Source: Zygnema cylindricum (Eukaryota; Streptophyta; Zygnematophyceae; Zygnematales; Zygnemataceae). Taken from it: 64,000 bases of DNA. Numbering within the stretch: position 1 is the stretch's first letter; every line of letters starts with the position of its first letter. Below are positions 17,178-50,221 of the stretch, one piece after another. The position numbers were made by a program, and so were the translations under genes. Location of the stretch: assembly GCA_037447655.1 (NCBI GenBank), contig JBBHKE010001809.1:33501-97500 (forward strand), given 5' to 3'. The notes under the pieces are model-generated. The model ran no database searches, was not told where the DNA came from, and saw only the letters and a list, made by a program, of their open reading frames with translations.

Positions 17178-17468
17178 TTGCTAAAGTAGTAACTGAGAGT
17201 GTCACTGAGTGTCACTCTGACAAACTGTCCTACAGCCTACGTGATCCCGAAGGGTCACTTGTCTTTACATAGCATGACGAAAGGGCAAGGTGTCCTTTCG
17301 TAAGAAGAGGAAGAAAATATCTAAATCTGAATCTAAGACAGAGGTACAGAAAATAGATAACGAAAAGCATAATACTAGATTACGTTATCTAGCACTAAGA
17401 CTAATAAAACAAGTTTGTAGCAAAGGAGAATAAAGACGAATCCAGGATTCCAACACCCCCCCGCTTTG

Positions 17469-20400
17469 CTAGAAACGGAGGCCGGCGGAGGACCGGTGAG
17501 CTTCGAATAGTGGCCGAGGAAGAGCCTTTGTCAGAAAATCGGCCATTTGTTGAGTAGTGGGGCAGTGGGAGAAGGTAACTGTGCCTGCAGCAATGGCGTC
17601 GCGAGTAAAGTGAAACTGGATGTCAATATGCTTCGTTCGGCGATGATGAACAGGGTTGTTCATCAAGGCAAGGGCCCCTTGAGAATCACAAAAGATAGTT
17701 GTGGCAGATGATGGACAGAATTGCAGATTTAAGAGGAGAGAACGAAGCCAGAGAGCCTCCTTAGTGGCGTGTGTGGCAGACATGTATTCGGCTTCAGTGG
17801 AGGAGAGGGCAACAGTAGGTTGCTTTTTAGATGCCCAAGAAACAAGAGCGCTGCCGAGTGAAAAACAAACGCCGGTGGTGCTGCGACGAGAATCCAGATC
17901 ACCGCCCCAGTCGGCATCGCAGTGGCCGACGAGAGCTGGAGGAGAGGAGCCGGTGAAGGTGAGTTTCAAAGTCCGAGTACCCTGGAGGTAGCGCAGGACT
18001 CTTTTGGCTGCAAGGAGGTGGTCAGTGGAGGGGTTGGAGACAAATTGACTAAGCTGGCCAACAGCTACAGCGATGTCCGGACGAGTTCCAGTCATTGCAT
18101 ACATAAGGCTGCCAACTATAGATCTGTACTGATCATGTATATCTCTGGGGACAGGCCCACCAGAGTTTCTAAGGAGTTTGACATTTGGATCTAGAGGGGT
18201 TGAGATAGGGGAGCAATCAGCCATAGAAAATCGGGTCAGAATTTCACCTATGTATTTATCTTGGGAAAGGTAAAGAGTCCTAGTGGGGCGATCCCGACCG
18301 ACAAAAATGCCAAGGCAATATTCTACTTCCCCTAGATCTGACATTGAGAAGTGGGTGTTGAGCATGAGTTTAACAAGATGAATAAGAGAAAGAGAGGGGC
18401 CAGCAAGGAGGAGATCATCTACATAGATGACGAGGATGACGAGTGTATCTGTAGTGCCTCGAATGAACAGTCCAAAATCTGCATTTAATTTTGAGAAACC
18501 TTCACGGAGGAGAATTGCCTCGAGATGCTTGTTCCACACTCTAGGAGCCTGCTTGAGGCCATAAAGAGATTTGAGGAGACGACATACCAGGTGTTCTTTG
18601 CCGGGAGACACATACCCTTCCGGTTGATGGAGGAAGATTTCCTCAGTGAGGGAACCGTAAAGGAAGGCGGTCTGCACATCCATGTGGTGGACATGCCAGT
18701 CTTGGGCAGCTGCAAGGGAGAGAAGAACCCGAATTGAGGTGAATTTTGCAACAGGAGCATATGTCTCCGTGAAGTCGACGCCTTCCTTCTGAAGAAATCC
18801 TTTTGCCACAAAGCGGGCCTTGAATCGGTCAAGAGTTCCGTCAGACTTTGTTTTGACCCGAAAGACCCATTTCGATCCGATTACTCTTCTGCCAGGGGGT
18901 AGTGAGGCAAGTTCCCAGGTGCCGTTTTGCTGGAGAGACGCAAATTCAGAATCGGTGGCGGCTTTCCATTCTGCAGCTTGAGGACCAGCCATGGCGGCAG
19001 AAAAGTTAAGGGGAACAGCAATGGTGGCAGAATTTGCTGTTCCATGAGTAAGAAGCTGCGCCTGAAGGCGTTCACTTCGGCGAGGGGCAGGAGCAGAAGG
19101 AGAAATTTGGTATAGAGGATCTTTAGGGTGAATGGGAGAAAGAGAGTAGGGATCAGAGGCTGTCCGAGTGAGGGGTGATAGTGTGGATAGGGGAAGGGAT
19201 GCAGAAGTTGTTCTGGTGAGAGTGGAGGAAGGGAAGGAAAGGAGATTTGCAGGAGTGGAGGGAGTAAGACTTGTTAAAGGGAGAATGACAGAGAGAGGAT
19301 CAGTGGATGCAAGAGTAGATGGTCCGGAGAATGAGACAGATTGCGGAGGAGTCGAAATACGCATGGAGTCATAGATTTTCTCGATAAGTGGCATTTCGTT
19401 GAAAACGACATCCCTGCTGAGGACGACTTGACGTTCTTTTGTCAGCCAGATGCGGTAAGCTTTGGATTCCGTACTGTAGCCGACTAAGACGCCGTGTTTG
19501 GCGCGGCTGTGCCATTTGCCGGCAGGTGCCAGGTCTTTTATCCAAGCATCGCAACCGAATATTCGAAGGTGTGATATGGTTGGTTTGGTGCCAGTCCAAG
19601 CCTCATAAGGGGTAACAGCAGGTAATGCGGAAGTCGGACAGCGATTGCGAATGTAATTCGCTGTCGAGACAGATTCTGCCCAAAAAGTGGTGGGCAGAGT
19701 GGAAAAATGTAACATTGAACGTGCCATGTTGAGGAGAGTACGGTTGTACCTCTCTGATACACCATTTTGCTGAGGGGTATTGGCGGTCGTTGACTGGTGA
19801 ATGATACCATGAGTTGCAAGGAATGAGGAGAATTCATTGGAGAAGTATTCTCCTCCATTATCTGTACGGAGGGTTTGAATTCTGCCTGACAATAAATTTT
19901 CAACAAGGGCTTTATACTCCTTGAATTTTTGAAATGTTTCAGATTTTCTGCGTATGGGATAGAGAAAGGAGTAGCGAGTTGCGTCATCGATGAAAGTGAC
20001 GAAGTAAAGCGCACCAGTGGGGCTGGGAGTGGACATTGGGCCGCAGAGGTCAGAGTGGATTAATTGGAGGGGATTGGAGGTTTTGGAAGTGCTGGAGGGA
20101 AATGATGGTCTGGCAAGTTTGCCTTCAACACAGCCAGAACAGAAGACTAGTTGTTTTTCAGTGAAGGGCTCCAAGCCGATGACGAGACCTTTGCTGAGTT
20201 GGAGTAGGCCGGATTGGGACAGATGTCCATATCGAAGATGCCATTTGGATAAAGTGGAAATGGCAAGAGGTGTGGCGATGTTGGCGGATCCAATGGTGGA
20301 AAAATAGCGAAGAATGTAGATTGAACCATTTTTAATTCCAAATCCGACTGTACGATCTCCAATAGAACGATTGGTAGTGGAGAAGAATTTGACATTGGTT

Positions 20401-21745
20401 TGGGAGAAAACAGCTGTGGCGCCTTGATGAAGAGCAGCACCAACGGAGAAGAGGTTTTTTTTAAGGCCAGGGACAAGAAGCACATGAGACAGTGTAATGG
20501 AGAAACCTGTTGAAGGCTCCGTTGGCGTGCAGATTTGCCCAAAGTGTGTGGCAGTGAGGGCTGCGTCATTGCCAAGGAGTATCGTCATTGGCGGACAAAG
20601 AGGAGAAATCGTGTTAAACCAGTCGGATCTATAAGATAGATGGTGGGAGGCACCAGAATCGACTATCCAAGAATCGGCCGATGGAGAAAAGTCGAGAGGG
20701 GAAGCCGTAGTCAAGGCGTAGCCGAATTCGGATGAAGACGATATGTACGGATTGGGTTGGCTGGAAGTATCCATCGGCAGGATCGGATTAGGAGGAATCG
20801 GACTGTAGGTGTACTGAGAGTACGGATTGAGAGATACTGGGGAGCGTTCTGGCAGATTTTGGTGACCGGGGATCAAGGGTTGGATAAATGGATTGGTTGG
20901 CGTAAAAGGATCGTTGGCGGTTGAAAAAATCGCCTCAGCACTGGATGCGTGACCGGAGTAGAGATTTCGGCCAGGATTTTGTCCACGTCCAGGCTGGCGT
21001 CCATAATTTCCTTGACGGTCGTTTTTTCTTTTGAGGACCGGGCAGACGTCAATGACGTGATCCGGCGCACGACAGTACCGACAGGAGGAATTTTTTGGAC
21101 TCCGATTGGGTGGAGGAAAAGTAGCCAAAGCTACACCAGGAGGTGGGGAAAAATTGTGTTTAGTTTCCTCGTGAAGTAAACCGGCCGTAAGAGAGGGGAT
21201 GGTGACAGCTGTAGATGAGTTGTCGATAGAGGAGATAAAAGCCGAATAGGACGTTGGAAGACCGCCCAAGATGGCCGAAATGATGTCCTCATCCGAGATG
21301 ACAGCACCGACGGTTTTGAGACGGCCGGCAATAGATTTGATGTTGTTGATGTAGGCTTGAATAGATTCGGCAGGATTTTTCTGAGCAGTGTTGAGTTGGC
21401 GGCGAAGAAGTAGTTTGTTAGACCAAGATTTGTTCTCATATGCTGTGGACAGAAGCGTCCAAGCACCGTGAGCTGAGGTGGCATCACGAATGAGATCAAG
21501 TTGCGAGGGTTCAAGTGCGAGAACCAGCCTAGAGTGCGCCTCCTCATTTTTAGCGAGCCAGGCGGATTTAGCGGCGGCATCGGAAGGTTCCCCTTCGCTT
21601 CCGTTTATAACGGACCAAAGTTTTTCGCGCCGGAAAAGGTGCTCAATCTGGAAAATTTCCAGCCGTAGAAATCCTTGCCATTGAATTTGGCAACGGTATT
21701 CGAACTAACGGGGAGAGGCCCATAGCCTATTGAATTAATAGTCAT
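17469..21745 (-). CDS. TE1 Gag-Pol polyprotein, one frameshift near the N-terminus
   Basis: The ATG at 21745-21743 lies within the LTR and starts MTINSIGYGP. After GWKF (about 21652) two extra bases shift the frame. From there one frame is open to the stop at 17469, with 1266 codons downstream of the first in-frame Met alone. Domains in order: Gag; zinc knuckle CRYCRAPDHVIDVC (CX2CX4HX4C); protease VDSGASHH; integrase [24 protein letters not shown]; reverse transcriptase MDVQTAFLYG and YVDD; RNase H CDADWGGD, STEAEYM, DSQGA. All catalytic motifs look intact, so only the frameshift stands against activity. Whether the frameshift is real, programmed or a sequencing error cannot be told here. 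Confidence 0.9.
21717..21727 (-). promoter_or_regulatory. Primer-binding site of TE1 (half-tRNA type)
   Basis: GGCTATGGGCC directly abuts the 5' LTR. It differs by one base from GGTTATGGGCC of the sister elements, which is complementary to the anticodon arm of initiator tRNA-Met. It is also in the Gag frame (GYGP). Confidence 0.7.
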
Positions 21746-22119
21746 AGCAGCGGGCACGAATACAAAAAGGACAGAAAATGGGCAGGTAAAATAATTGCCA
21801 AAATAGTTTAAAAAAAAGGTTATTTTACAATGAAACAAAAATTGCTAAAGTAGAAACTGAGAGTGTCACTTAGTGTCACTCTGACAGACTGTCCTACAGC
21901 CTACGTGATCCCGAAGGGTCAATTGTCTTTTCCTAGCATGACGAAAGGGCAAGGTGTCCTTTCGTAAGAAGAGGAAGAAAATATCTAAATCCGAATCTAA
22001 GACAGAGGTACAGAAAATAGATAACGAAAAGCATAATACTAGATTGCGTTATCTAGCACTAAGACTAATAAAAAAAGTTTGTAGCAAAGGAGAATAAAGA
22101 CGAATCCAGGATTCCAACA

Positions 22120-24602: not shown

Positions 24603-24960
24603 GGTCAAAGGATCCATCAGCTTTAGTTTTGATGCGGAAAACCTATTTCGATCCGATGACCTTTCGATCTTTTGGAAGGGAGATGAGTTCCCACGTGCCA
24701 TTTTTTTGCAAGGATGCAAACTCCGTGTCTGTGGCCACTTTCCAGGAGGCAGCATGTGGCCCATTCATGGCAGCTGAAAAAGGTCAAAGGATCCATCAGC
24801 TTTAGTTTTGATGAGGAAAACCTATTTCGATCCGATGACCTTTCGATCTTTTGGAAGGGAGGTGAGTTCCCACGTGCCATTTTTTTGCAAGGATGCAAAC
24901 TCCGTGTCTGTGGCCACTTTCCAGGAGGCAGCATGTGGCCCATTCATGGCAGCTGAAAAA
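24603..24960. repeat. 179-bp perfect-looking tandem duplication in TE2
   Basis: GGTCAAAGGATCCATCAGCT starts at 24603 and again at 24782. The two copies run to 24781 and 24960 with very few differences (for example GATGCGG versus GATGAGG). It repeats the start of the RT domain. Confidence 0.9.
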
Positions 24961-26797
24961 GATCGAGGAACGGCGAAAGTGGCAATGTTTGCTGTTCCAT
25001 TAGCTTCACGAAGCTGCTGGTTGAATTCACTCTTTCGAAGGGGGAGGGCGGTAGCATCAGGAGTAGGAACGGAATTTTCCTTTTGAATAACATATGGTGG
25101 ATCGTTAGGATTGACTGCGGAGAGGGAATAAGGGTCGGAAACAGTCCGAGAGAGTGGGGAAGGGGAGGATGGTAAAAAGAGTTCTGAAGTAGATCTGAGG
25201 AGTGTGGAAGGAGGGAGGAGCAGAGAAGGGTGGGAGAGTGAAGAATGATTGGCCGAATGAGGAGGATTGGCAGGGGAGATGATGAAAAGGGGTGATGAAA
25301 GAGATTCAAGCTAGGTAAGGGGAAGAGGAGGAGGGGAAGGAAAAGGAGGTGAAGCATGCAGGAGTTTGAGAAGGAGAGGTGCTTCATTAAAACTGACGTC
25401 AGGGCTGTGGACGACTCGACCTTCGCTAGAGACCCAGATTCAGTATGCCTTGGATTCGGTTGCAAAACCAACTAAGATGCCCGATTTGGCTTGGCTGTCT
25501 CACTTGCCGGCTGAAGTAAGATTCTTTATCCAAGCGGTACAACCGAATATACGAAAGTGTGAGACGTCTGGTTTTACTCCTGTCCACGCTTCATGAGGGG
25601 TTTTCCGGGAAGAGCGGAGGTTGGGGAAAGGTTACGTAAGTAATTTGCAGTGGTTACAAATTCTGCCTAGAAAATTGTTGGCAGGGCAGCGAAATGTAAC
25701 ATGGACCTCGCCATGTTGACCACCGTACGATTATATCTCTCGGAAACACCATTTTGTTGTGGTGTATGTGTAACTGTAGATTGGTGAATAATTCCGTGAT
25801 TACTGAGGAATCGCGAAAATTCGGTGGAGAAGTATTCCCCCCCTGTTGTCGGTCCTTAGACATTTGATACGACAGTCAAGGGAGTTTTCAACAAGGGATT
25901 TGTATTCTTGAAATTTGTGGAACGTGTCAGATTTGCGCCGAAGAAGGAAAAGATGACAGAAGCGTGTGGCATCATCAATGAAGGTTACAAAATATAGGGC
26001 GCCGGTGTGACTGGGTACAGACATAAGACCACAGACAATGGACCACAGAGATCAGAGTGAACCAATGGGAGGGGGCCGCTGGATTTAGAAGTGGAAGATA
26101 GAAAAGACGGACGCATTGACTTGCCTTGGACAAGCAAAAAGGTAGATTTTTCGTTGAAAATGGATCTAGGCCGTTGACAAGACCTTTGCTTAATGCTTGC
26201 AGACTGAAGGCGGAAAGATGGCCGTATTGTAAATGCCATCGTGGGAATGAATGTGGCGATGGCGATACGGCAAAGTTGGTAGATCCAACGGAGTTAAAAT
26301 GAGATAGGATGTATATAGAGCCGGATTTGATTCCAAGTCCTACTTGAGCGTGAGTAGACAAATAGAATGTAACAGAGGTTGTGGAAAAAACAGCAGTGGC
26401 GCCTTGATGAAGGGCGACGCCAATTGAGAAAAGATTATTTTTCAGTCCAAGGACGAATAGGACGTGAGAGAGTATTATTGGTGATGTCACGTTGGGGCGG
26501 CCGACAGTGGAGATTTCACCGATTTGGGTGGCCGTTAAAGCGACATTGTTACCTAGTAGAATCGTGATAGGAGAGAGTAGCGGCGATATGTTTGTAAACC
26601 AATCAGAGAGTGAGGATAAATGATGGGACGCTCCAGAGTCCATGACCCAAGAGTCGTTTGGTATAAGTGGATCGGGTACCGCGGACGTGACAAGGGCGAA
26701 ACCATAATCAGGTTGTGTTGAAGGATATTGAGCAGCCGGTAATTGTCCCAAGACAGCTAGAGCGGGACCATAAAGATAATTGCTGTACAGATGGACG

Positions 26798-27043
26798 TGT
26801 TGGAGAATTGTCCACTTTGGACTCCACACGTGTGTATCGCGCTGTAAGGTGGTTCGCCAGTGCACCGCTAAATCGCCGTATAAATTCGGTATTAGGCGCT
26901 TGCGTACACATCGGCCGGGTAGCTCAGTTGGTAGAGCTAGTGTACGGTTCACACAGGTCTCGGGTTCGAACCCTAGCTTGGCCATTTTCCAAAGTTAACA
27001 CTTTGGCGCCTTAGCGATTAGTTGAAAATCGCCGATTCTAACA
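26798..27043. mobile_element. Solo-LTR-like element carrying a tRNA-like pol III unit
   Basis: 246 bp inserted in TE2's gag-protease region. It begins TGTTGGAGAATTGTCC and ends GCCGATTCTAACA: TG...CA ends with short inverted repeat TGTTRGA/TCTAACA. The 5-bp target duplication GGACG stands at 26793-26797 and 27044-27048. It shares no sequence with the copia LTRs here, which end in TA. Inside, 26913-26984 folds like a tRNA and has A and B boxes and a TTTT terminator. The size and layout recall Cassandra TRIM LTRs, which carry 5S rRNA sequence; here the pol III module is tRNA-like. A SINE is less likely because the tRNA part does not start the insertion. Confidence 0.75.
26913..26984 (+). tRNA. 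tRNA-like sequence inside the solo-LTR-like element (probably not a working tRNA)
   Basis: The acceptor stem GGCCGGG pairs with CTTGGCC (two G-U pairs). D arm GCTC/GAGC with loop AGTTGGTA. Anticodon stem AGTGT/ACACA (one mismatch) around loop ACGGTTC. T loop TTCGAAC on a weak stem. A box TAGCTCAGTTGG (26920-26931), B box GGTTCGAACCC (26963-26973), TTTT at 26985-26988. Position 33 is C instead of the invariant U and the T stem is mismatched. Read literally the anticodon would be GGT. Best seen as a tRNA-derived pol III promoter module. Confidence 0.6.
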
Positions 27044-27929
27044 GGACGATGGGCGGTGGTGGAAGATATTCACCAAAAGGAGCATTGGCGCATCTAGAGG
27101 AATGAGGATTGGCGAAAGGATTTGTTTGCGCGAAATATTCGGGATGACCGGTTGGATCGCTTCAACCATAGAGGCTTGGCCAGGATAAAGACCGTGGCCA
27201 CCTTTTCGTCCACGCCCACTTGTACGACAAGGACCTCCTTGACGATCGCGTTTTAGTGCAGGACAATTGTCAATGATGTGATCAAGCTCGCGGCAATAAC
27301 AACACGAAGAGATCTTGGACGGCCGGGTGGATGGATAATAGGTTGCCAAAGCGACACCAGGAGGTAGAGTTTGTTTCGTCTCTTTATGCACCAGACTGAC
27401 GGTCAGAGACGGAATAGTGATAACTACAGAAGAGTTGTCGATTGATGAAATGAAGGCGGCATAGGAAGACGGCAGTCCTTCTAAGATTGTCGTAATAATA
27501 TCTTCATCAGATACAGTAGAGCTGATACTCTTCAGACGTCCAGCAAGTGATTTGATATTGTGAATATATTGTTGGATACTCTCAGAGGGAAGTTTCTAAG
27601 AAGAAATCAGTTGTCGACGAAGGAGGAGTTTGTTGGACCACGACCGAACTTCGTACGCGTTGGTTAACATTTTCTAGGCGTCGTGAGCAGAATTAGCGTC
27701 ACGGATGAGGTCGAGTTGGGAAGGCTTAAGAGACAGAACCAATCGCGAATGCACCTCTTCATTGCGAAGTAGCCAAGTAGGTTTGGCGGTGACATCAGAT
27801 AGTTCTGCCTCGCTTCTGTAGACAATAGACCAAAGTTTCTCCCGCCGCAAAAGGTGCTTGATTTGATACTTCCATCCGTAGAAGTCCATGCAGTTGAATT
27901 TTGCAACGGTGTTTGAGTTCGTAATGAAA

Positions 27930-27940
27930 GGCCCATAACC
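27930..27940 (-). promoter_or_regulatory. Primer-binding site of TE2 (half-tRNA type)
   Basis: On the - strand GGTTATGGGCC follows the LTR end CTATA directly. All 11 bases complement the anticodon arm of eukaryotic initiator tRNA-Met (GGCCCAUAACC) and encode Gag GYGP. Confidence 0.8.
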
Positions 27941-28466
27941 TATAGGATTAGATGACATGGCAGGGAACAAAGTAGGAGAGAAGATAAATGCATAAAAGGA
28001 CAAAGGTAGAGAAAGACAATTGTATTTCTTAATTGGTGATGAATACAGAGTTGTCGTATAAGTAGAAGAGAGAAAGTCATAAGTATGACTTTTCAAGATC
28101 CAAGGAGCTTATGTGACTCTGAAGGGTAACTTGGCTCTTTTGCCGAAAAGGCTGAAATTGGATCTTTAGGTGTAAGTGAGAGCTAAAGATCAGATCTACT
28201 GCCAGAAACTGTCAAAAACTACAGGGCTGCAGGGCTGCAGTGTGCGCTTCTAAGAAGCTCCAGGAGTAGAAAACAGAAATAGATACCTAAAACATAAAAC
28301 TGAAACTAAAACAGAAATTGAAAGAACAGAAAATTGAGCTAGGTGAAAAGCATAGGCTAGACTGCTCTAACTAGCTACATAATGCAAACTGGAATACCGG
28401 TTTGCGTTATTAACAAAGGTAGGGCTAGTTCGAAGATTCTAACAAAGAAATAATTTTAACACATGG

Positions 28467-29970: not shown

Positions 29971-30448
29971 AAATGGAGGGAGAGGGAGAGGAGAGCAAGA
30001 GGGAGAGGGAGAGGTATAAGGAGAGGGAGAGGGAAAGGGAGGGGGAGAGGGGAAGGAGAGGGAGAGGGAGATGGAGGGCCAAAGAAAAAGGGACAGGAGA
30101 GGGGAAAGAGAGGAAGGGGGGGAGGGAGAGAGAGAGGGAGAGGGAGAGGGAGGGCCAAAGAAAAAGGGACAAGGAGTGGGGAAAAAAAGGGAGAGGGAGA
30201 GGAGGGGAAGGAGAGGGAGTGGGAGAGGACGAGGGGGAGGGGTAGGAGAGGGAGAGAGGGAGGGGTAGGAAAGGGAGAGGGAGCGGGGGAGGGGGAGGGG
30301 AAAGGGAAAGAGAGGGAGAGGGAGAGGGAGCAAAAGAGGGAGAGGGAGAGGAAGAGGGAGGGAGGGAGAGAGACGGAGAGTGGGAGAGGGGTAGAGAGGG
30401 AGAGAGGAAAAGCGTGGGAGAGAGATATTGGTGAGGGAGAGAAGGAGG
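29971..30448. repeat. GGGAGA purine tract
   Basis: An AATGGAGGGAGAGGGAGAGG-type sequence containing a duplicated module (AGGGCCAAAGAAAAAGGGAC at about 30075 and 30149). It ends with GGAGG, the target duplication of TE3. Long open frames here are repeat artefacts. Confidence 0.9.
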
Positions 30449-30966
30449 TGTTAAAATTACTCCTTTGTTAGAATCATCAGGCTAGCTCTACTTTTAAGAA
30501 ATAACGTAAACTGGTATTCCAGTTTACGTTATTTAGCTAGTGCTAGCATTCTAGCCTATGAGACTCACCTAGTTCAGTTTTCAGTTTCCAGTTTTCTGTT
30601 TTTCCTTTTGCTTTAGTATCAGTTTTCTGTTTTCTGCTCCTGGCGCTTCTTAGAAGTGCACACCGTAGCCTCTGTAGCATCTGACACTAGATTTGATCCT
30701 TAGTAGCTTCTGACACTAGACTTGATCCTCTAGACTAAGGATCTCAATTTTTGCCTTTTCGGCAAAAGAGCTAAGTGACCTTTCAGAGTCACATAAGCTC
30801 AACAGACCTTGAAAAGTTACATTCGTGACTTTCCCTATTCTACTTAAACGACTGCCTTGTACTTTCTAAAATACCAAGAAATACAATTTGTCTTTCTCTA
30901 CATTTTTGTCCTTTTCTATATTACTTTCATCCTACTTTGTCTGCTGCCATGTCATCAACTTCTATA

Positions 30967-30977
30967 GGTTATGGGCC
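30967..30977 (+). promoter_or_regulatory. Primer-binding site of TE3 (half-tRNA type)
   Basis: GGTTATGGGCC directly after the LTR end CTATA. All 11 bases complement the tRNA-iMet anticodon arm; the site overlaps Gag codons for GYGP. Confidence 0.8.
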
Positions 30978-33900
30978 TTTCAATGCTAACTCCAACAACG
31001 ATGCTAAATTCAACGGCACGGACTTCTACGGATGGAAGTTTCAGATTGAGCACCTTTTGCGGCGGGAGAAACTTTGGTCTATTATCAACGGAAGTGAAGC
31101 AGAACCTTCGGATGCTACCGCCAAACCTGCTTGGCTGCTTTGCAATGAGGAAGCACATTCGCGATTAGTTTATAGCCCTTGAGCCTTCCCAACTTGGACT
31201 CATCCGTGACGCTAGCTCTGCTCATGACGCCTGGAGACTTCTGACAAATGCCTACGAAATTCGATCTTGGTCAAACAAACTTCTTCTTCGTCGTCGACTG
31301 ATTTCTTCTCAGAAACTTCCCTCCGAGAGTATGCACGACTACATCCAAAATATCAAATCTCTGGCTGGTCGTCTGAAGAGCATCGGCTCTACCGTCACTG
31401 ATGAAGATATTATTACGGCAATCTTAGGAGGACTACCGCCCTCTTACGCCGCATTCATTTCATCGATTGACAATTCTTCTGTCACTGTTACTATTCCTTC
31501 TCTCACCACCGGTCTGGTGCATGAAGAGACAAAACAGAATCTGCCTCAGCCCCCTGGTGTCGCTTTGGCAGCCTATCATCCGTCCACCCGGCCACCCAAG
31601 ATCTCCTCCTGTCGCTATTGCCGGGAGTCTGACCACGTTATCGAAAATTGTCCTGCACTCAAGCGTAAGCAGGACCGACAAGGACATCCTGGTCGGGCAG
31701 GTGGGCGTGGCCGCCAGGGTGGCCGCGGCCTTTATCATGGTCACGCCTCTACGGCTGAAGCAATTCCTCCGGTCGTCCCTGACTATTTTGCCCAGACAAA
31801 TCCTTTCGCGTATTCTCATTCACCTGGATATGTCAACGCTCCTCTTGGCGAATATTCTCAACCGTCGCCTGTCGCCCAGCCGTACAACACTTATCCTTAT
31901 GGTTCCGTTCCACCTGTTGCCGCACAATCACTGGCTGCCCCATATACTTCACCACCTCCTGATTATGGATTTGCCCTGGTCGCATCTGCACCGCCCGATC
32001 CTCTCATCCCAAACAACTCTTGGATCGTAGACTCTGGAGCGTCCCATCACTTATCCTCCCGCTCCGATTGGTTCACAAAATTATCGCCGCTTCATTCTCC
32101 CATGACGATTTTACTTGGCAACAATGCCGCCTTAACGGCTACTCATATCGGTCAGATCTTAACTGTCGGCCACAATAATGTGACATCACCGATAATCCTC
32201 TCTCATGTGACTGAAAAAGAATCATTTCTCCGTCGGCGCAGCCCTCAATCAAGGCGCCACTGCTGTTTTCTCCACCACCATTGTCACATTCTATTCATCT
32301 ACTCATGCGCAAGTAGGTCTTGGAATAAAATCAGGATCTATATACATCCTATCACACTTCCAATCCGTTAGATCTGCCAACTTAGCTATATCCACTTCAC
32401 CTCAATCATTCCCACGATGGCATCTCCGATATGGCCATCTTTTCGCCTCCGGTTTGCACACATTAAGTAAAGGCCTTGTCAACGGCCTAGATTCATTTTC
32501 GCCCAATAATCTGCCATTTTGTTCGGGATGCGTCCAAGGCAAACTAACTCGGCCGTCCTTTCCATCTTCAACCTCTAAATCTGACGGCCCTCTTACATTG
32601 GTCCACTCGGACCTCTGTGGTCCCATGTCTGTACCCAGCCATACCGGCGCCCTATACTTCGTCACATTCATTGATGATGCTACACGCTTTTGTCACCTTT
32701 TTCTCCTTCGTCGAAAATCTGACACATTCCACAAGTTTCAAGAGTACAAATCCCTCGTTGAAAACTCCCTTGACTGTCGCATAAAATGTTTGAGAACCGA
32801 CAATGGGGGAGAGTACTTCTCCACCGAATTTTCGCGATTCCTCAGCCTTCACGGCATCATTCACCAATCGACGGTCGCAAATACGCCACAACAAAACGGG
32901 GTTTCAGAACGATACAATCGTACAGTCATCAACATGGCAAGATCTATGTTACATTTCGCTGCTCTACCGACAAACTTTTGGGCAGAATCTGTCACTACGG
33001 CAAATTACCTACGTAATCTTTCCCCAACTTCCGCCCTTCCTGGAAAAACCCCTTATGAAGCCTGGACGGGAATTAAACGCGACGTTTCCCATCTTCGTAT
33101 ATTCGCGGCGTGGGTGAAAAATCTAACTCCGGCCGGCAAGTGGGATAGCCGAGCCAAATCGGGCGTCCTAGTCGGTTTTGCCACCGAATCAAAGGCATAC
33201 CGAATCTGGCTATCCACCGAACGTCGAATTGTCCTCAGCCGTGACGTCAGCTTTAATGAAACTCCTCTCCTTCTCAAACTCCTAAACTCCTCCTCTCCCA
33301 TTCCTTCCATTCTTCCCCTTACTACTGTCCACACAGAGCCTCCTTCATCAGCCCTATCTATCATTTCCCCTGCCATTTTTCCAAATTCGACCGATCCTCC
33401 TTCACTCTCTCCTCCTCCTTTACCACTATCTCCCACCCCACTCATCCGGACAACTTCAGAGCCACATTTACCATCCTCCCCTCCCACACTCCCTCGGACA
33501 GTTTCAGACCCTTACTCCCTCTCCTCAGTCGATCCTCATGCTCCACCATATGTTATTCCAGTTGGCAATCTTGCGGCTCCTCCTGCTGCCATTACTCTCC
33601 CCATCCGACGAAGTGAAAGAGTTACTCTCCTGATCCGACGAAGTGAAAGAGTTCATGCTCGGCAGCTTCGCGATTCAAATGGCACAGCAAACGTTGCCAC
33701 TGTCGACGTTCCTCATTCCTTTTCAGCCGCCATGAGTGGACCAAATGCTGCCTCCTGGAAAATAGCCACGGACGCTGAATTTGCCTCCTTACAAAAAAAT
33801 GGCACGTGGGAACTCACCTCCCTTCCACAAGGTCGAAAGGTTATCGGATCGAAGTGGGTCTTCCGCATCAAAACTAAGGCCGATGGATCCCTTGATCGCT

Positions 33901-39600: not shown

Positions 39601-42600
39601 CTCCGGGTCTTCTCGACAGCGCATCCGCCGGGTTTGTCTTGCCCGGTTTATACTCAATAGTTAGCTCCGGTCCGAAGGTCTGAAGAAACGTCATCCATCA
39701 AACCTATTTCTTTGACAACTTCGGTTGTGTCTGGAGATACTGTAGGGCGTGGTGATCGGTGATGATTGTGATCCGTTTCCCTTTAACGTAGCATTTCCAA
39801 ACTTCCAGCGCGTTAATAATTGCGATTGTCTCCTTTTCATGTGTGGCCCCGTTAAGTTTCGCTGCCTTTAGTTTCCGATTGTCGTAGGCAATGGGTTGAA
39901 GGCTTTTTCTTTGATCCTCCATAAGGATCGCTCCAATAGCCGTATCGCTGGCGTATGTAATTATCGTCCAAAGTGATTCCGGGTCGGGGACAGCTAACAC
40001 AGGGGCGGTAACCAACCGCTCTTTTAGCGTGTTAAAGGCTGCCTCTTGCAACGTTTTCCGGTCATAGGGCACGTCATTCTTAAGTAATTCCGTAAGTGGT
40101 GCATCAATTTTTGCGAAACCTTCGACAAAACGGCGATAGTAGGAGCATAGTCCAAAAAAGCTCCGTAACTCCGTAATGTTCGTCCGCTGCGGCCACTCCT
40201 TCACTGCCTTAGTTTTGTTCGGATCCACTGCGATCCCATACTGGCTCACCAAATGACCCAAAAACTCAATTTTCTCCTTCAAGAAGTCACATTTACTACT
40301 CTACGCGTATAACTTATTCTCCCGAAGGACTTGTAAGACCGTTCGTAGGTGCTCCACATGATCCTTCAACGTCTTGCTATACACCAAGATGTCGTCCAAC
40401 AAGACAATTACAAAGGCGTCCAAATATTGCCGAAAAATTGAGTTCATCAAGTGCATAAAGGTCGCCGGCGCGTTGGTCAATCCCAATGGCATAACCAGAA
40501 ATTGGAAATGACCGTACCGAGTCCGGAATGCAGTCTTTTCCACGTCTTTTTCGGCAATTCTGATTTGGTGATAACCACTTCGTAAGTCGATCTTGAAAAA
40601 TATTTGGCACCTCTTAACCTATCTAATAATTCATCTATCCTTGGTAGAGGGTACGCATTTTTCACCGTCAGCTTAATTAGCGCTCGGTAATCCACACACA
40701 TACGAAAACCTCTATCTTTCTTATTCACGACGAGGACAAGGGCTCCATACGGTGACTTGCTCGGTTCGATTGCTCCGGCATCGACCAACTCCGCAAGTTG
40801 CTTTTTGAGTTCATTTAATACAGTGTAGCTCATCTTGTACATCCGATTTGCCGGGGGTACCGCTCCGGGAATAAGCTCTATCTTGTGGTCTACTTTGCGC
40901 TTCGGAAGTAAGCCTACTGGGAGCTTCGGGGGAAAGACATCAACATACTCCTCGAGAAGTTTTGTCACGACTTCCGGGGCCTCTTCGGAAGTCTTTCCGG
41001 TGTCGTCACTCTTTTTTGAGTCGAAGTCGGGATCCTTCTTACTCTATTCTTCCGGAATCCCCTCTTTCTCTTCCTCCATAGGTTGGACGACCGCCATACC
41101 AATTGTCTCCCTTTTCCTGAGAGCCCTCTTTAACTGTAAGGCCGAAAGCAGGCGTCCCTCTTCCGTTTCCTTACCAGCCGCTCTCACCTTTACCTCAAAA
41201 TCTTTTTCACCTTTCTTAACTCTCATGTTGCCACTTCTCCAATCGATCGTCAGGTTCAATTTTTGCAACCATGGTTTCCCCAAGATTACTTCATGGTCTC
41301 CAAGCGGTAATACATAGAGGGTGTTAAACCAGTGGAAATTCCCAATTCCGACGCGTAACCTAGGAGTACGATGAGTAATGGATAGGGATCTTCCGTCAGC
41401 CAATTGCACCGACTGACGATCCGTTAGCACCACTAGAGGAAGTTTCAACTTTTTCACCGTCAGCTCGTTAATGAAGTTCCCTGTACGCCAGAGTCCACTA
41501 TGAAGCTAGCTGCGCTCACTTTGATTCGACCTTGAAATATTAAAGGATCTCCTCCCTCACCAGCTAACCTCATGACGTTAGCTTGCCTTTTTTAGGACCT
41601 CTCCTTTTTGGGCATTCCTCGGGCCATATGGTCTAGGGAACCGCACTGGAAACATAAGCCGTTTTGCCTCCTTCATTGGAGCTTCTCAAGGGACAAGTCG
41701 TTAGTCTTAGCCTTGCTAGTTTTTTTTTTTTCCGTAGCATGTTGACCACCTCCTTATCCTCGTCAATTGCTCCAAGCTCCATGGGAGTTGGACCATCAAC
41801 ATGTCGACCTCCTCCACCACTACTCGACCCATAATGATATGGTCTGCTTAAGGTGAAGTCCACTAAATCGGTCCGTTCCGAAAACTGAATAATGGTCGAT
41901 AGAGTAGGAGTCGTACTTTCCCAAGCGAGCCATTGTTCCACAACCCTCCGAATAGATGCTTTAAGCCCCTTCACGTAACAATCCACGGCTTCATCCTCCG
42001 TCATCGTGGGTATTTGCACCTTGCACTCCAAGAACCGCTGCGTATACTCGAACACCGATGTTCGTTGCTTTAAAATCACGATCTTATCCCTTGCAGCCTT
42101 AACCTTATTGACAGGTTGCCAAGAGTCACGGAGGAGTTGAAAGAAAAGGGCCCAAATCGACGGTATCTCATCGTTTTCTACCATCTTTCTTCACCATGCT
42201 CTCGTTGCACCTTTTAGAAGACCACCCGTATAATGAATCTTCTCACGATCCGACAGGCTAGTAAAATCCTCAAGGTAATTCGCAACGGAGAATAGCCACG
42301 CATCAAGATTCTTGTGTTTGGCTGGGTCAAACTCATCGGGAATTATTAACTTCGGTCTCTTTAAGTCTCTCTCTATGCCTCAATGAGGTCGTTCACCCAA
42401 ACGAGATTCCAGTGTTGCGACGGTGTTGCTCAATTGCGCATTTTGTAATCTCACGTTTTCTATCTCCGGGAGAACCTACGCTAACATATCTGTGGTGTAC
42501 ACGCCGTCTTCACTCATGTTGTCGCGTCACGAGAATTGTGCTCCGATACTAGTGTAAAAGGGACATGATAACACAATGCACAACGAAAGAAACCAAGGAT

Positions 42601-48600: not shown

Positions 48601-50221
48601 AATTGTTCCAGACGGTGAAGTCAAAGGAGAGGCAGAGGAAGGAAAGGGAGGGAAAGGAGAGGGAGGGGTAGGAGAGGGAGAGGAGGGAAAAGACGAGGAT
48701 TCTGCAGGAAATGATGAGCCTTGAGCAAGTAGAAGGCAGGGAAGGATTGCCTACATGCGAAAATCATTGGAGAGAGGAGAGAGAGAGGAGAGGAGAGAGA
48801 GAGGGAGAGAGAGAGGAGGAGAGCGGAGAGAGGGGAGAGAGAGGGGAGAGAGGGGGGAGAGAGGGGGAGGAGAGAGGGGAGAGAGAGGGGAGAGAGAGGG
48901 GGAGAGAGAGGGGGGGAGAGAGGGGGAGAGAGGGAGAGAGAGAGAGAGAGGGAAGAGAGAGGGGAGAGAGAGGGGGGAGAGAGGGGGGAGAGAGGGGGAG
49001 AGAGGGGGGAGAGAGGGGGGAGAGAGGGGGGAGAGAGGGGGGAGAGAGGGGGGAGAGAGGGGGGAGAGAGGGGGGAGAGAGGGGGGAGAGAGGGGGGAGA
49101 GAGGGGGGAGAGAGGGGGGGAGAGAGGGGGGAGAGAGGGGGGAGAGAGGGGGGAGAGAGAGGGGAGAGAGAGGGGAGAGAGAGGAGAGAGAGGGGAGAGA
49201 GAGGGAGAGAGAGGGGGGAGAGAGGGGGGAGAGAGGGGGGAGGAGGGGGGAGAGAGGGGGGAGAGAGGGGGGAGAGAGGGGGGAGAGAGGGGGGAGAGAG
49301 GGGGGGGAGAGAGGGGGAGAGAGGGGGGAGAGAGGGGGGAGAGAGGGGGGGAGAGGGGGGAGAGAGGGGGGGAGAGAGGGGGGAGAGAGAGGGGAGAGAG
49401 AGGGGAGAGAGAGGGGAGGAGAGAGGGGGAGAGAGAGGGGAGAGAGAGGGGAGAGAGAGGGGAGAGAGAGGGGAGAGAGGGGAGAGAGAGGGGAGAGAGG
49501 GGGGGAGAGAGAGGGGAGAGAGAGGGGAGAGAGGGGAGAGAGGGGGAGAGGGGAGAGAGGGGAGAGAGGGGAGGGAGGGGAGGAGGGGAGGAGACGGGGA
49601 GGGACGGGAGGGACGGGAGGGAGGAGAGGAGGAGAGGGAGGAGAGGGAGGAGAGGGAGGAGAGGGAGGAGGGAGAGGGAGAGGGAGAGGGAGAGGGAGCA
49701 GGAGCGGGAGCGGGAGAGGAGGGGAGAGGGAGAGGGAGAGGGAGAGGGAGAGGGGAGAGGGAGAGGGAGAGGGGAGGGAGGGAGAGGGAGAGGGGAGAGG
49801 GAGAGGGAGGGAGAGGGAGAGGGAGAGGGAGAGGGAGAGGGAGAGGGAGAGGGAGAGGAGAGGGAGAGGGAGAGGGAGAGGGAGAGGAGAGGGAGAGGGA
49901 CAGGGCGAGGGAGAGAGAGAAATGAATCATAGACATTAATAATAAAGGTGCTCCCTCATTCAAAATGCCAAATTTCACACATTTCTTTAGTTTTCAGAAA
50001 GTAAAACAAACACTGCAGATGATGTGATACACATAATATCTATATTACAATATATACCTACATAAATGTTTATAGAGAGAGAGGGAGGGAGGGAGGGAGG
50101 GAGGGAGGGAGGGAGGGAGGGAGGAGGAAGGGAGGGAGGGGGGGGAGGGAGGGAGGGGGGGGGAGGAGGGAGGGGGGGAGGGGGGGTAGGGGGGGAGGGG
50201 GGTGTGGGAGGGGGAGAGGGA

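Follow-up and report, generated by a model that had tools for sequence, protein, structure and literature searches.

We found that the 246-bp insertion at positions 26798-27043 (plus strand) of the window, a 64,000-nucleotide stretch of contig C1356 in the 352.8 Mb assembly of Zygnema cylindricum, is very probably the solo LTR of a non-autonomous, non-coding TRIM retrotransposon that carries a tRNA-like sequence within its LTR (Helenus/TRIMp3), with the life cycle proposed below. The structure of the element, its copies in the genome, their target site duplications (TSDs), an empty site and a primer-site match carry this reading. By its structural features, the element is a new family of the Helenus kind, and its layout has been known since 2024.

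The insertion and its family in the genome

The insertion has the termini TGTTGG...CTAACA and is flanked by the 5-bp target site duplication GGACG on the left (26793-26797) and on the right (27044-27048). It interrupts a degraded minus-strand Copia copy (24784-28462, the span of the alignment to a paralogous copy), and the paralog, at approximately 30448-33895 of the window and on the opposite strand, contains the empty site at 31873-31877 (plus strand), as placed by BLAST breakpoints and by alignment of the joined flanks. The joined flanks are identical to the empty-site paralog at 304 of 394 positions (77%) and gap-free at the insertion site, the sole gap being 1 base at a distance of about 90 bases. 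The sequence-only reading had described a 246-bp insertion with TG...CA ends and an exact GGACG duplication, all of which is confirmed, with the empty site in the paralogous Copia copy. Recombination between two LTRs would account for the solo form.

When the assembly was searched with the 246 bp, at least 54 matches were obtained at E ≤ 0.001, of which 53 lie outside the window (40 of the 306 candidates were scored), and the element is therefore not a chance occurrence. A unique tRNA pseudogene is ruled out by these matches together with the paired copies. Matches to this type, which we term Thr-1, are mostly full length, with an identity of 90-97%, and those with a query start of at most 4 and an end of at least 240 (48 of 53) form, together with the window copy, a set of 49 LTRs. 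LTR pairs in direct orientation recur approximately 307 bp apart, and the 39 Thr-1 units examined comprise 10 complete elements and 29 single rows, the window copy included. A typical complete element measures 553 bp, with two LTRs of 246 bp around an internal part of about 61 bp (61 bp in 8 of 10 elements, 60 bp in L039 and 62 bp in L034), which spans the primer-binding site (PBS) TGGTATCRGAGCCAG to the polypurine tract (PPT) TGAGGGGGCG and is too short to code for a protein. The internal part starts with TGGTATC(A/G/T)GAGCCAG in six elements (L009, L010, L012, L016, L036 and L039); the PBS start is shifted one base later in L034, and L018, L025 and L041 show further changes. It ends with TGAGGGGGCG in nine of the ten, L039 being one base shorter.

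Exact 5-bp TSDs flank 6 of the 10 complete elements and 18 of the 29 single rows (window included), with 4 of 5 bases matching at the complete element L018 and none found at the complete elements L034, L036 and L041; several of the 11 single rows without an exact TSD are visibly truncated beside the PBS or the PPT. LTR-pair identity in the complete elements ranges from 227/250 to 246/246, and the identical pair, that of L016, points to recent activity of the family. In L025 and L039 a second LTR, 1.7-2.0 kb from the complete element, has one flank in common with it, as though by duplication of that flank. The reading made from the sequence had taken the insertion for an LTR of a miniature retroelement and had proposed a search for direct-orientation pairs around a short internal part and for further 5-bp duplications; the structure was right, this being a multi-copy TRIM with PBS and PPT in ten complete elements, and both the pairs and the duplications exist in the numbers given above. 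Where it had named a SINE with a tail or a unique tRNA pseudogene as the alternatives, paired multi-copy elements were found instead. A DNA transposon was set aside once LTR pairs, PBS and PPT had been found.

The tRNA-like cassette in five LTR types

Within the 246-bp LTR, a U3-like part (26798-26912, the boundary being drawn from the tRNA start) precedes the tRNA-like sequence at 26913-26984, which occupies LTR positions 116-187 and is the proposed R region. ARAGORN calls it tRNA-Thr (ggt), and Rfam RF00005 matches it with 33.9 bits, above its gathering score of 29; no other Rfam hit in the window reaches gathering level. It contains an A box, TAGCTCAGTTGG (26920-26931), and a B box, GGTTCGAACCC (26963-26973), the motifs of which, TRGCNNAGNNGG and GGTTCGANNCC, are each intact in 41 of 49 LTRs, and it is followed by TTTT at 26985-26988 (48 of 49 LTRs) and by a U5 hairpin, CCAAAGT..ACTTTGG, at 26989-27006, obtained by folding the segment. 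CACATC stands directly 5' of the tRNA-like start at 26907-26912 (43 of 49 LTRs), with CAACATC in its place in 32 of 48 Gln-type LTRs, and TATAAAT lies 34 bp 5' of that start at 26879-26885 (TATAAA in 44 of 49 aligned LTRs); all these features are on the plus strand. The boxes and the TTTT directly after the tRNA-like part were thus located where the earlier description had put them, and both ARAGORN and Rfam call a tRNA; the TATAAAT is an additional feature that this otherwise accurate description of the cassette had not contained. TATA, CAA and poly(T) are described as elements of plant tRNA genes in the accessible text of a published study (PMC11700998). Judged by its motifs, the tRNA-like part is probably a pol III promoter.

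The idea that the A and B boxes are conserved above the LTR background failed, with a conservation of 0.978 at the box positions and 0.962 in the rest of the LTR, which random columns match in 28% of cases (P 0.28). The idea of slower evolution failed as well, the tRNA part evolving no more slowly than its surroundings in 47 Thr and 75 Gln-like copies, all full length. Fold energy alone is not significant for the tRNA-like part of the window (z −1.39, with 18 of 200 shuffles equally good), and one T-stem pair that the Thr-1 family majority keeps intact is broken in the window copy.

The genome holds five tRNA-LTR types, Thr-1, Thr-2, Gln, Glu and Lys, and the last four have a plan like that of Thr-1, the Lys type being without T4. 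An LTR end followed by the PBS occurs at 455 genome sites (control 6); a non-random sample of 40 loci, picked from 100 listed of these 455, contained 56 such joints, of which 48 are Gln or Glu (types pooled), 2 Thr-1 and 6 damaged or unassigned. A stricter pattern, consisting of the B box GGTTCGANNCC, 40-70 bases, and AACA with the PBS, matches exactly at 169 sites (control 0), and the 100 listed among them are all Gln, Glu, Thr-1 or Thr-2 by eye; the Lys type cannot match this pattern, since it has GGTTCAA. The Gln type (tRNA-Gln (ctg) by ARAGORN) has an LTR of 229 and an internal part of 57 bp. The Glu type comprises 45 non-redundant copies, at least one of them Gln (the middle LTR of L105), and is 83% identical to the Gln type outside the tRNA part (131/158), while Thr-2 and Thr-1 are approximately 83% alike. 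The Lys type, with an LTR of about 221 and an internal part of 66 bp, has at least 80 genome matches (40 of 911 candidates scored), including one LTR pair identical at 221/221 positions. BLAST similarity between Lys-type and Gln-type loci is limited to the stretch from the TATA to the tRNA end, at mostly 82-88%, a pattern suggestive of cassette movement between LTRs.

Among 47 readable Thr-1 LTRs, the T run next to the tRNA-like part has four T in 38, five in 8 and three in 1; in the Gln type it has four T in 36 and three in 2 (38 readable of 48). In Thr-2 the run is broken (TTTAACC) and a TTTT begins 12 bases past the tRNA end (GTTTTCAC for GTTAACAC), a layout seen in 7 of 16 Thr-like rows of the strict pattern, with 1 more decayed, 2 with both runs and 6 Thr-1. 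In the Lys type, 8 LTRs from 4 loci lack a T4 over the 28 bases that follow the tRNA-like part. A universal T4 stop is contradicted by this type, and a weak stop is common across the types and not universal. At about 2546-2620 of L046, at least roughly 230 bases 5' of a truncated Gln-type joint, there is a second tRNA-like stretch (TAGTAGCCTAATGG...GGTTCAAATCC), possibly a SINE.

A functional tRNA gene has U at position 33, before the anticodon. The anticodon loops read ACGGTTC in Thr-1 (the window type), AGCTGAA in Gln, AGCTCAA in Glu and AGCTTAA in Lys, with C, G, G and G, respectively, at position 33, which by eye is not U in any of these four types. A functional tRNA gene was set aside on this ground for the four types; some Thr-2 copies have U, as in L119 and L120, where the loop is ATGTCTA and the anticodon Asp-like (ARAGORN).

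We also examined the RNA fold. The cloverleaf is the lowest-energy fold of the Gln majority, all 20 cloverleaf pairs are formed in the Thr-1 majority, and the Glu majority has a lowest-energy fold other than the cloverleaf, although all 21 cloverleaf pairs can form. In the tRNA part, 7 sites and one indel distinguish the Gln majority from the Glu majority; 5 of the 7 sites are in the anticodon stem, and all 21 pairs are intact in both. Two pairs are changed on both sides, 29-41 from CG to GC and 27-43 from TA to CG. When the changes were placed at random (200,000 trials), all pairs were kept in 1.2% of trials, and in 0.015% two or more double changes occurred as well. For 12 hand-chosen copies (9 distinct), the covariation score reaches 0.181, whereas shuffling gives 0.125 ± 0.016 (0 of 500) and sliding gives 0.050 or less; in the same 12 copies, the numbers of double-changed pairs (3) and of pair types (9) are not above those of shuffles. 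The Gln and Glu types separate in a tree from which the tRNA columns were left out, and L052 and L062 have the 27-43 change together with the older base at 41, which leaves the 29-41 pair open; given this tree and these intermediates, the anticodon-stem changes look stepwise rather than like one block swap. The stem covariation comes from one branch and two pairs, and a swapped anticodon arm may be an alternative. Within two families, the full-length Thr and Gln-like copies counted above, broken pairs are fewer than after shuffling (15 vs 22.5, P 0.014; 65 vs 77.5, P 0.020), a deficit that is weak because the copies are related. The compensatory stem changes make it testable whether the tRNA fold, beyond the promoter boxes, serves the element.

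Primer, proposed life cycle and tandem arrays

Two host genes at C301 end with GGATCGAAACCTGGCTCTGATA; they are two of four matches to a tRNA-end pattern (control 0) that included the CC of CCA, and each of the four has 2 mismatches, which at C301 lie only at that end. With CCA added, this ending at C301, which we take to be that of the initiator tRNA-Met of plants, is exactly complementary to TGGTATCAGAGCCAG, the 15-base PBS in its A variant. By base complementarity, then, the putative PBS of the TRIM matches a host tRNA of initiator type. A putative Copia partner would supply the enzymes in trans, and the TSD length of 5 bp fits Copia mobilisation. No autonomous partner was found among the Copia elements examined, this PBS being absent from the paired-LTR Copia element at 17178-22119 of the window and from four Copia 5' stretches. 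A first look at the genome gave 22,405 candidates for Copia reverse transcriptase, of which 150 were scored; many of these lie within uninterrupted frames of about 1454-1457 aa, and Copia therefore looks recently active.

In the proposed life cycle, pol III would start near 26907-26913, would sometimes read through the weak T4, and would stop at the T4 of the 3' LTR, whereby the tRNA-like part would form the R repeat. A Copia enzyme acting in trans and priming from the host initiator tRNA-Met would then make the cDNA, Copia integrase would leave the 5-bp duplication, and LTR-LTR recombination would afterwards yield solo copies such as 26798-27043. The T4 stop cannot be general, as the eight Lys-type LTRs examined lack a T4 over the next 28 nt.

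A different account, which we regard as quite improbable, would make this a Copia-type LTR transcribed by pol II, with the TATA setting the start at the tRNA head and the tRNA-like part serving packaging or stability as an RNA fold instead of acting as a promoter. It would agree with the TATAAA kept in 44 of 49 LTRs, with the TATA of the Lys type, which is without a nearby T4, and with the covariation between Gln and Glu types of an anticodon stem that lies outside the boxes, but A box, B box and T4, the needs of a pol III gene, are all present together in the Thr-1 family. A tRNA-derived SINE, with which our element shares a tRNA-like part bearing A and B boxes, has practically no chance of being correct: the tRNA-like part is at 116-187 of 246 and not at the head, the ends are TGTT...AACA with a 5-bp TSD, and it is already refuted by the 10 complete copies, in which PBS and PPT lie between two LTRs.

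The tRNA-LTR TRIM also occurs in tandem arrays. Uniform arrays are enclosed by one exact TSD in L059 (4 LTRs, GTTAT) and L045 (5 LTRs, CTCAC), and mixed types were found in 7 of 65 multi-LTR groups (L062, L064, L067, L103, L105, L121 and L122). L103 has the order Glu (cut), Lys, Glu, Thr-2 within ATATT...ATATT, L105 the order Glu, Gln, Glu within CTTCT...CTTCT, and L127 the order Thr-2, Lys within AATTG...AATTG; L127 and L128 were selected because the genome-wide joint list indicated mixed joints there. The TSD of L121 matches at 4 of 5 bases only, and L122 and L128, as portions of longer arrays, are without a testable TSD. At the seven joints read where the internal types differ (three in L103 and one each in L121, L122, L127 and L128), the internal part is always of the type of the downstream LTR, and at six of them the upstream LTR is complete to AACA with the PBS immediately next. 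In the exceptional joint, Glu to Lys in L103, the upstream LTR breaks off within its tRNA-like part and the internal part follows: at 1010-1209 of L103, a Glu-type LTR is cut inside the anticodon arm and fused to a Lys-type internal part over a short stretch common to both, which resembles a template switch. Compared with one another, the flanks of L103, L105, L121, L122, L127 and L128, each of about 110 bases or less, gave no homology.

Genome-wide, going by a visual reading of the final LTR letters, a Thr-2 LTR precedes 4 of 52 Lys-type internal parts (control 1), all four with a verified downstream LTR, and a Lys (5) or Glu (1) LTR precedes 6 of 64 Thr-type internal parts by eye (control 0), with the downstream LTR verified for the Glu case (L103) only; a few ends in both lists are ambiguous. 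PBS position 8 is the host tRNA base (A) at 5 of 6 mixed Thr-type joints vs 19 of 58 others, by eye. L031, a damaged stretch with pieces of a Lys LTR, a Thr-type internal part and a Thr-1 piece, may be another mixed joint and is not counted.

We infer that the mixed joints are best explained by a transfer of plus-strand strong-stop DNA between co-packaged elements via the shared PBS. The strong-stop DNA, an LTR plus the primer-site copy made from the initiator tRNA, would anneal in one type to the primer-site complement of another and be extended. This step could repeat, as the enzyme, once past the downstream LTR, would reach the tRNA primer and make a new PBS end; with every extension ending in a new primer-site copy, LTRs would be added serially and the mixed chain would integrate as one unit. 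Taken as one joint reading, co-packaged types of tRNA-LTR TRIMs, serial LTR chains mediated by the PBS, a tRNA part kept as an RNA cloverleaf besides its role as promoter DNA, and a TATA-to-tRNA cassette exchanged between otherwise unrelated LTRs have, in our estimate, slightly better than even odds of being right.

For tandem TRIM arrays, two explanations are given in the accessible text on Cassandra, recombination after insertion and template switching in reverse transcription, the latter named by Kalendar and colleagues as an option for Cassandra arrays (PMC7215508), and recombination between packaged elements has been reported for Onsen in the text available to us (PMC5668417). Unequal crossing over between LTRs after insertion, as the origin of mixed and uniform arrays alike and corresponding to the recombination proposal for Cassandra (PMC7215508), is in our view unlikely. 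The uniform arrays L045 and L059 fit either model, but the mixed arrays join LTRs without homology at an LTR end/PBS joint and inside one exact TSD (L103, L127), whereas two insertions that had crossed over would have TSDs that do not match. The two published explanations can be distinguished by arrays in which types lacking common LTR sequence are mixed.

Relation to described TRIMs and other window features

Helenus (TRIMp3) was described by Kojima in 2024 as TRIMs with a tRNA-derived sequence in the LTR, from fungi, animals and one plant, and the only plant family in the accessible text is Helenus-1_SMo of Selaginella moellendorffii, with an LTR of 120 and an internal part of 85 bp (PMC10886601). 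The sequence-only reading knew of no described plant or algal family with this layout; Helenus-1_SMo is one already published (PMC10886601). As this text characterises Helenus, the likeness extends to a non-coding TRIM of less than 1000 bp with two LTRs (here 10 elements, typically of 553 bp), to LTRs that contain a tRNA-like sequence bearing A and B boxes, to a PBS complementary to a host tRNA and a PPT at the internal ends, and to 5-bp TSDs (in plants and fungi) with solo LTRs that also have TSDs. Tandem arrays, as found here, are recorded there for LTR-11_DR, the pol III promoter is putative in both cases, and the fungal Helenus families are described as mobilised by Copia (PMC10886601). 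In contrast to the 120/85 bp of LTR and internal part in Helenus-1_SMo, the types found here measure 246/61, 229/57 and about 221/66 bp. Five LTR types occur in this one genome, and several Helenus families per genome are also reported for rusts (PMC10886601). Predicted RNA structures of Helenus do not support a tRNA function (PMC10886601), a view with which the non-U33 of Thr-1, Gln, Glu and Lys agrees, but the pairing is kept here, and U is present in some Thr-2 copies. Mixed arrays and a covarying anticodon stem are the features of the elements found here, and, set against the available part of the published Helenus description, they form two leads beyond it.

Our literature search, which covered titles and the starts of abstracts, with subscription papers mostly outside it, found no other Helenus/TRIMp3 paper and none on mixed TRIM arrays. 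Since the layout is a discovery of 2024, the window element extends its range, and as far as this search shows, Z. cylindricum is a second green-lineage host, with many copies, young ones among them.

Cassandra, in the accessible text, is likewise a plant TRIM with a pol III promoter in the LTR (a candidate here), a PBS TGGTATCAGAGC and tandem arrays of LTR and internal part (PMC7215508). It carries 5S rRNA where the present element carries a tRNA, and no differences between array units are reported in that text, whereas some of the arrays here mix types (PMC7215508). Cassandra was rejected for the window, in which no 5S rRNA was found and the tRNA is the only gathering-level Rfam hit. With canonical TRIM/SMART elements, as they are described in the accessible text on Helenus, the present element shares a short internal part of PBS and PPT only, but their LTRs are without a pol III cassette (PMC10886601).

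Elsewhere in the window, an expansin gene with introns and at least three exons lies at about 900-2170, with DPBB_1 and Expansin_C in two exons; its best relative is an alpha-expansin of Klebsormidium nitens (47%, the first of 7 hits), and the other named hits are from land plants. A 408-aa open frame, most of which was used as query, gave no match. On the minus strand, reverse transcriptase (RVT_1), retroviral protease and gag domains occur at 40304-42190, in fragments that are probably Gypsy-like, and at 48770-49920 there is a long GA-rich tandem repeat with a period of about 11, open in several frames.
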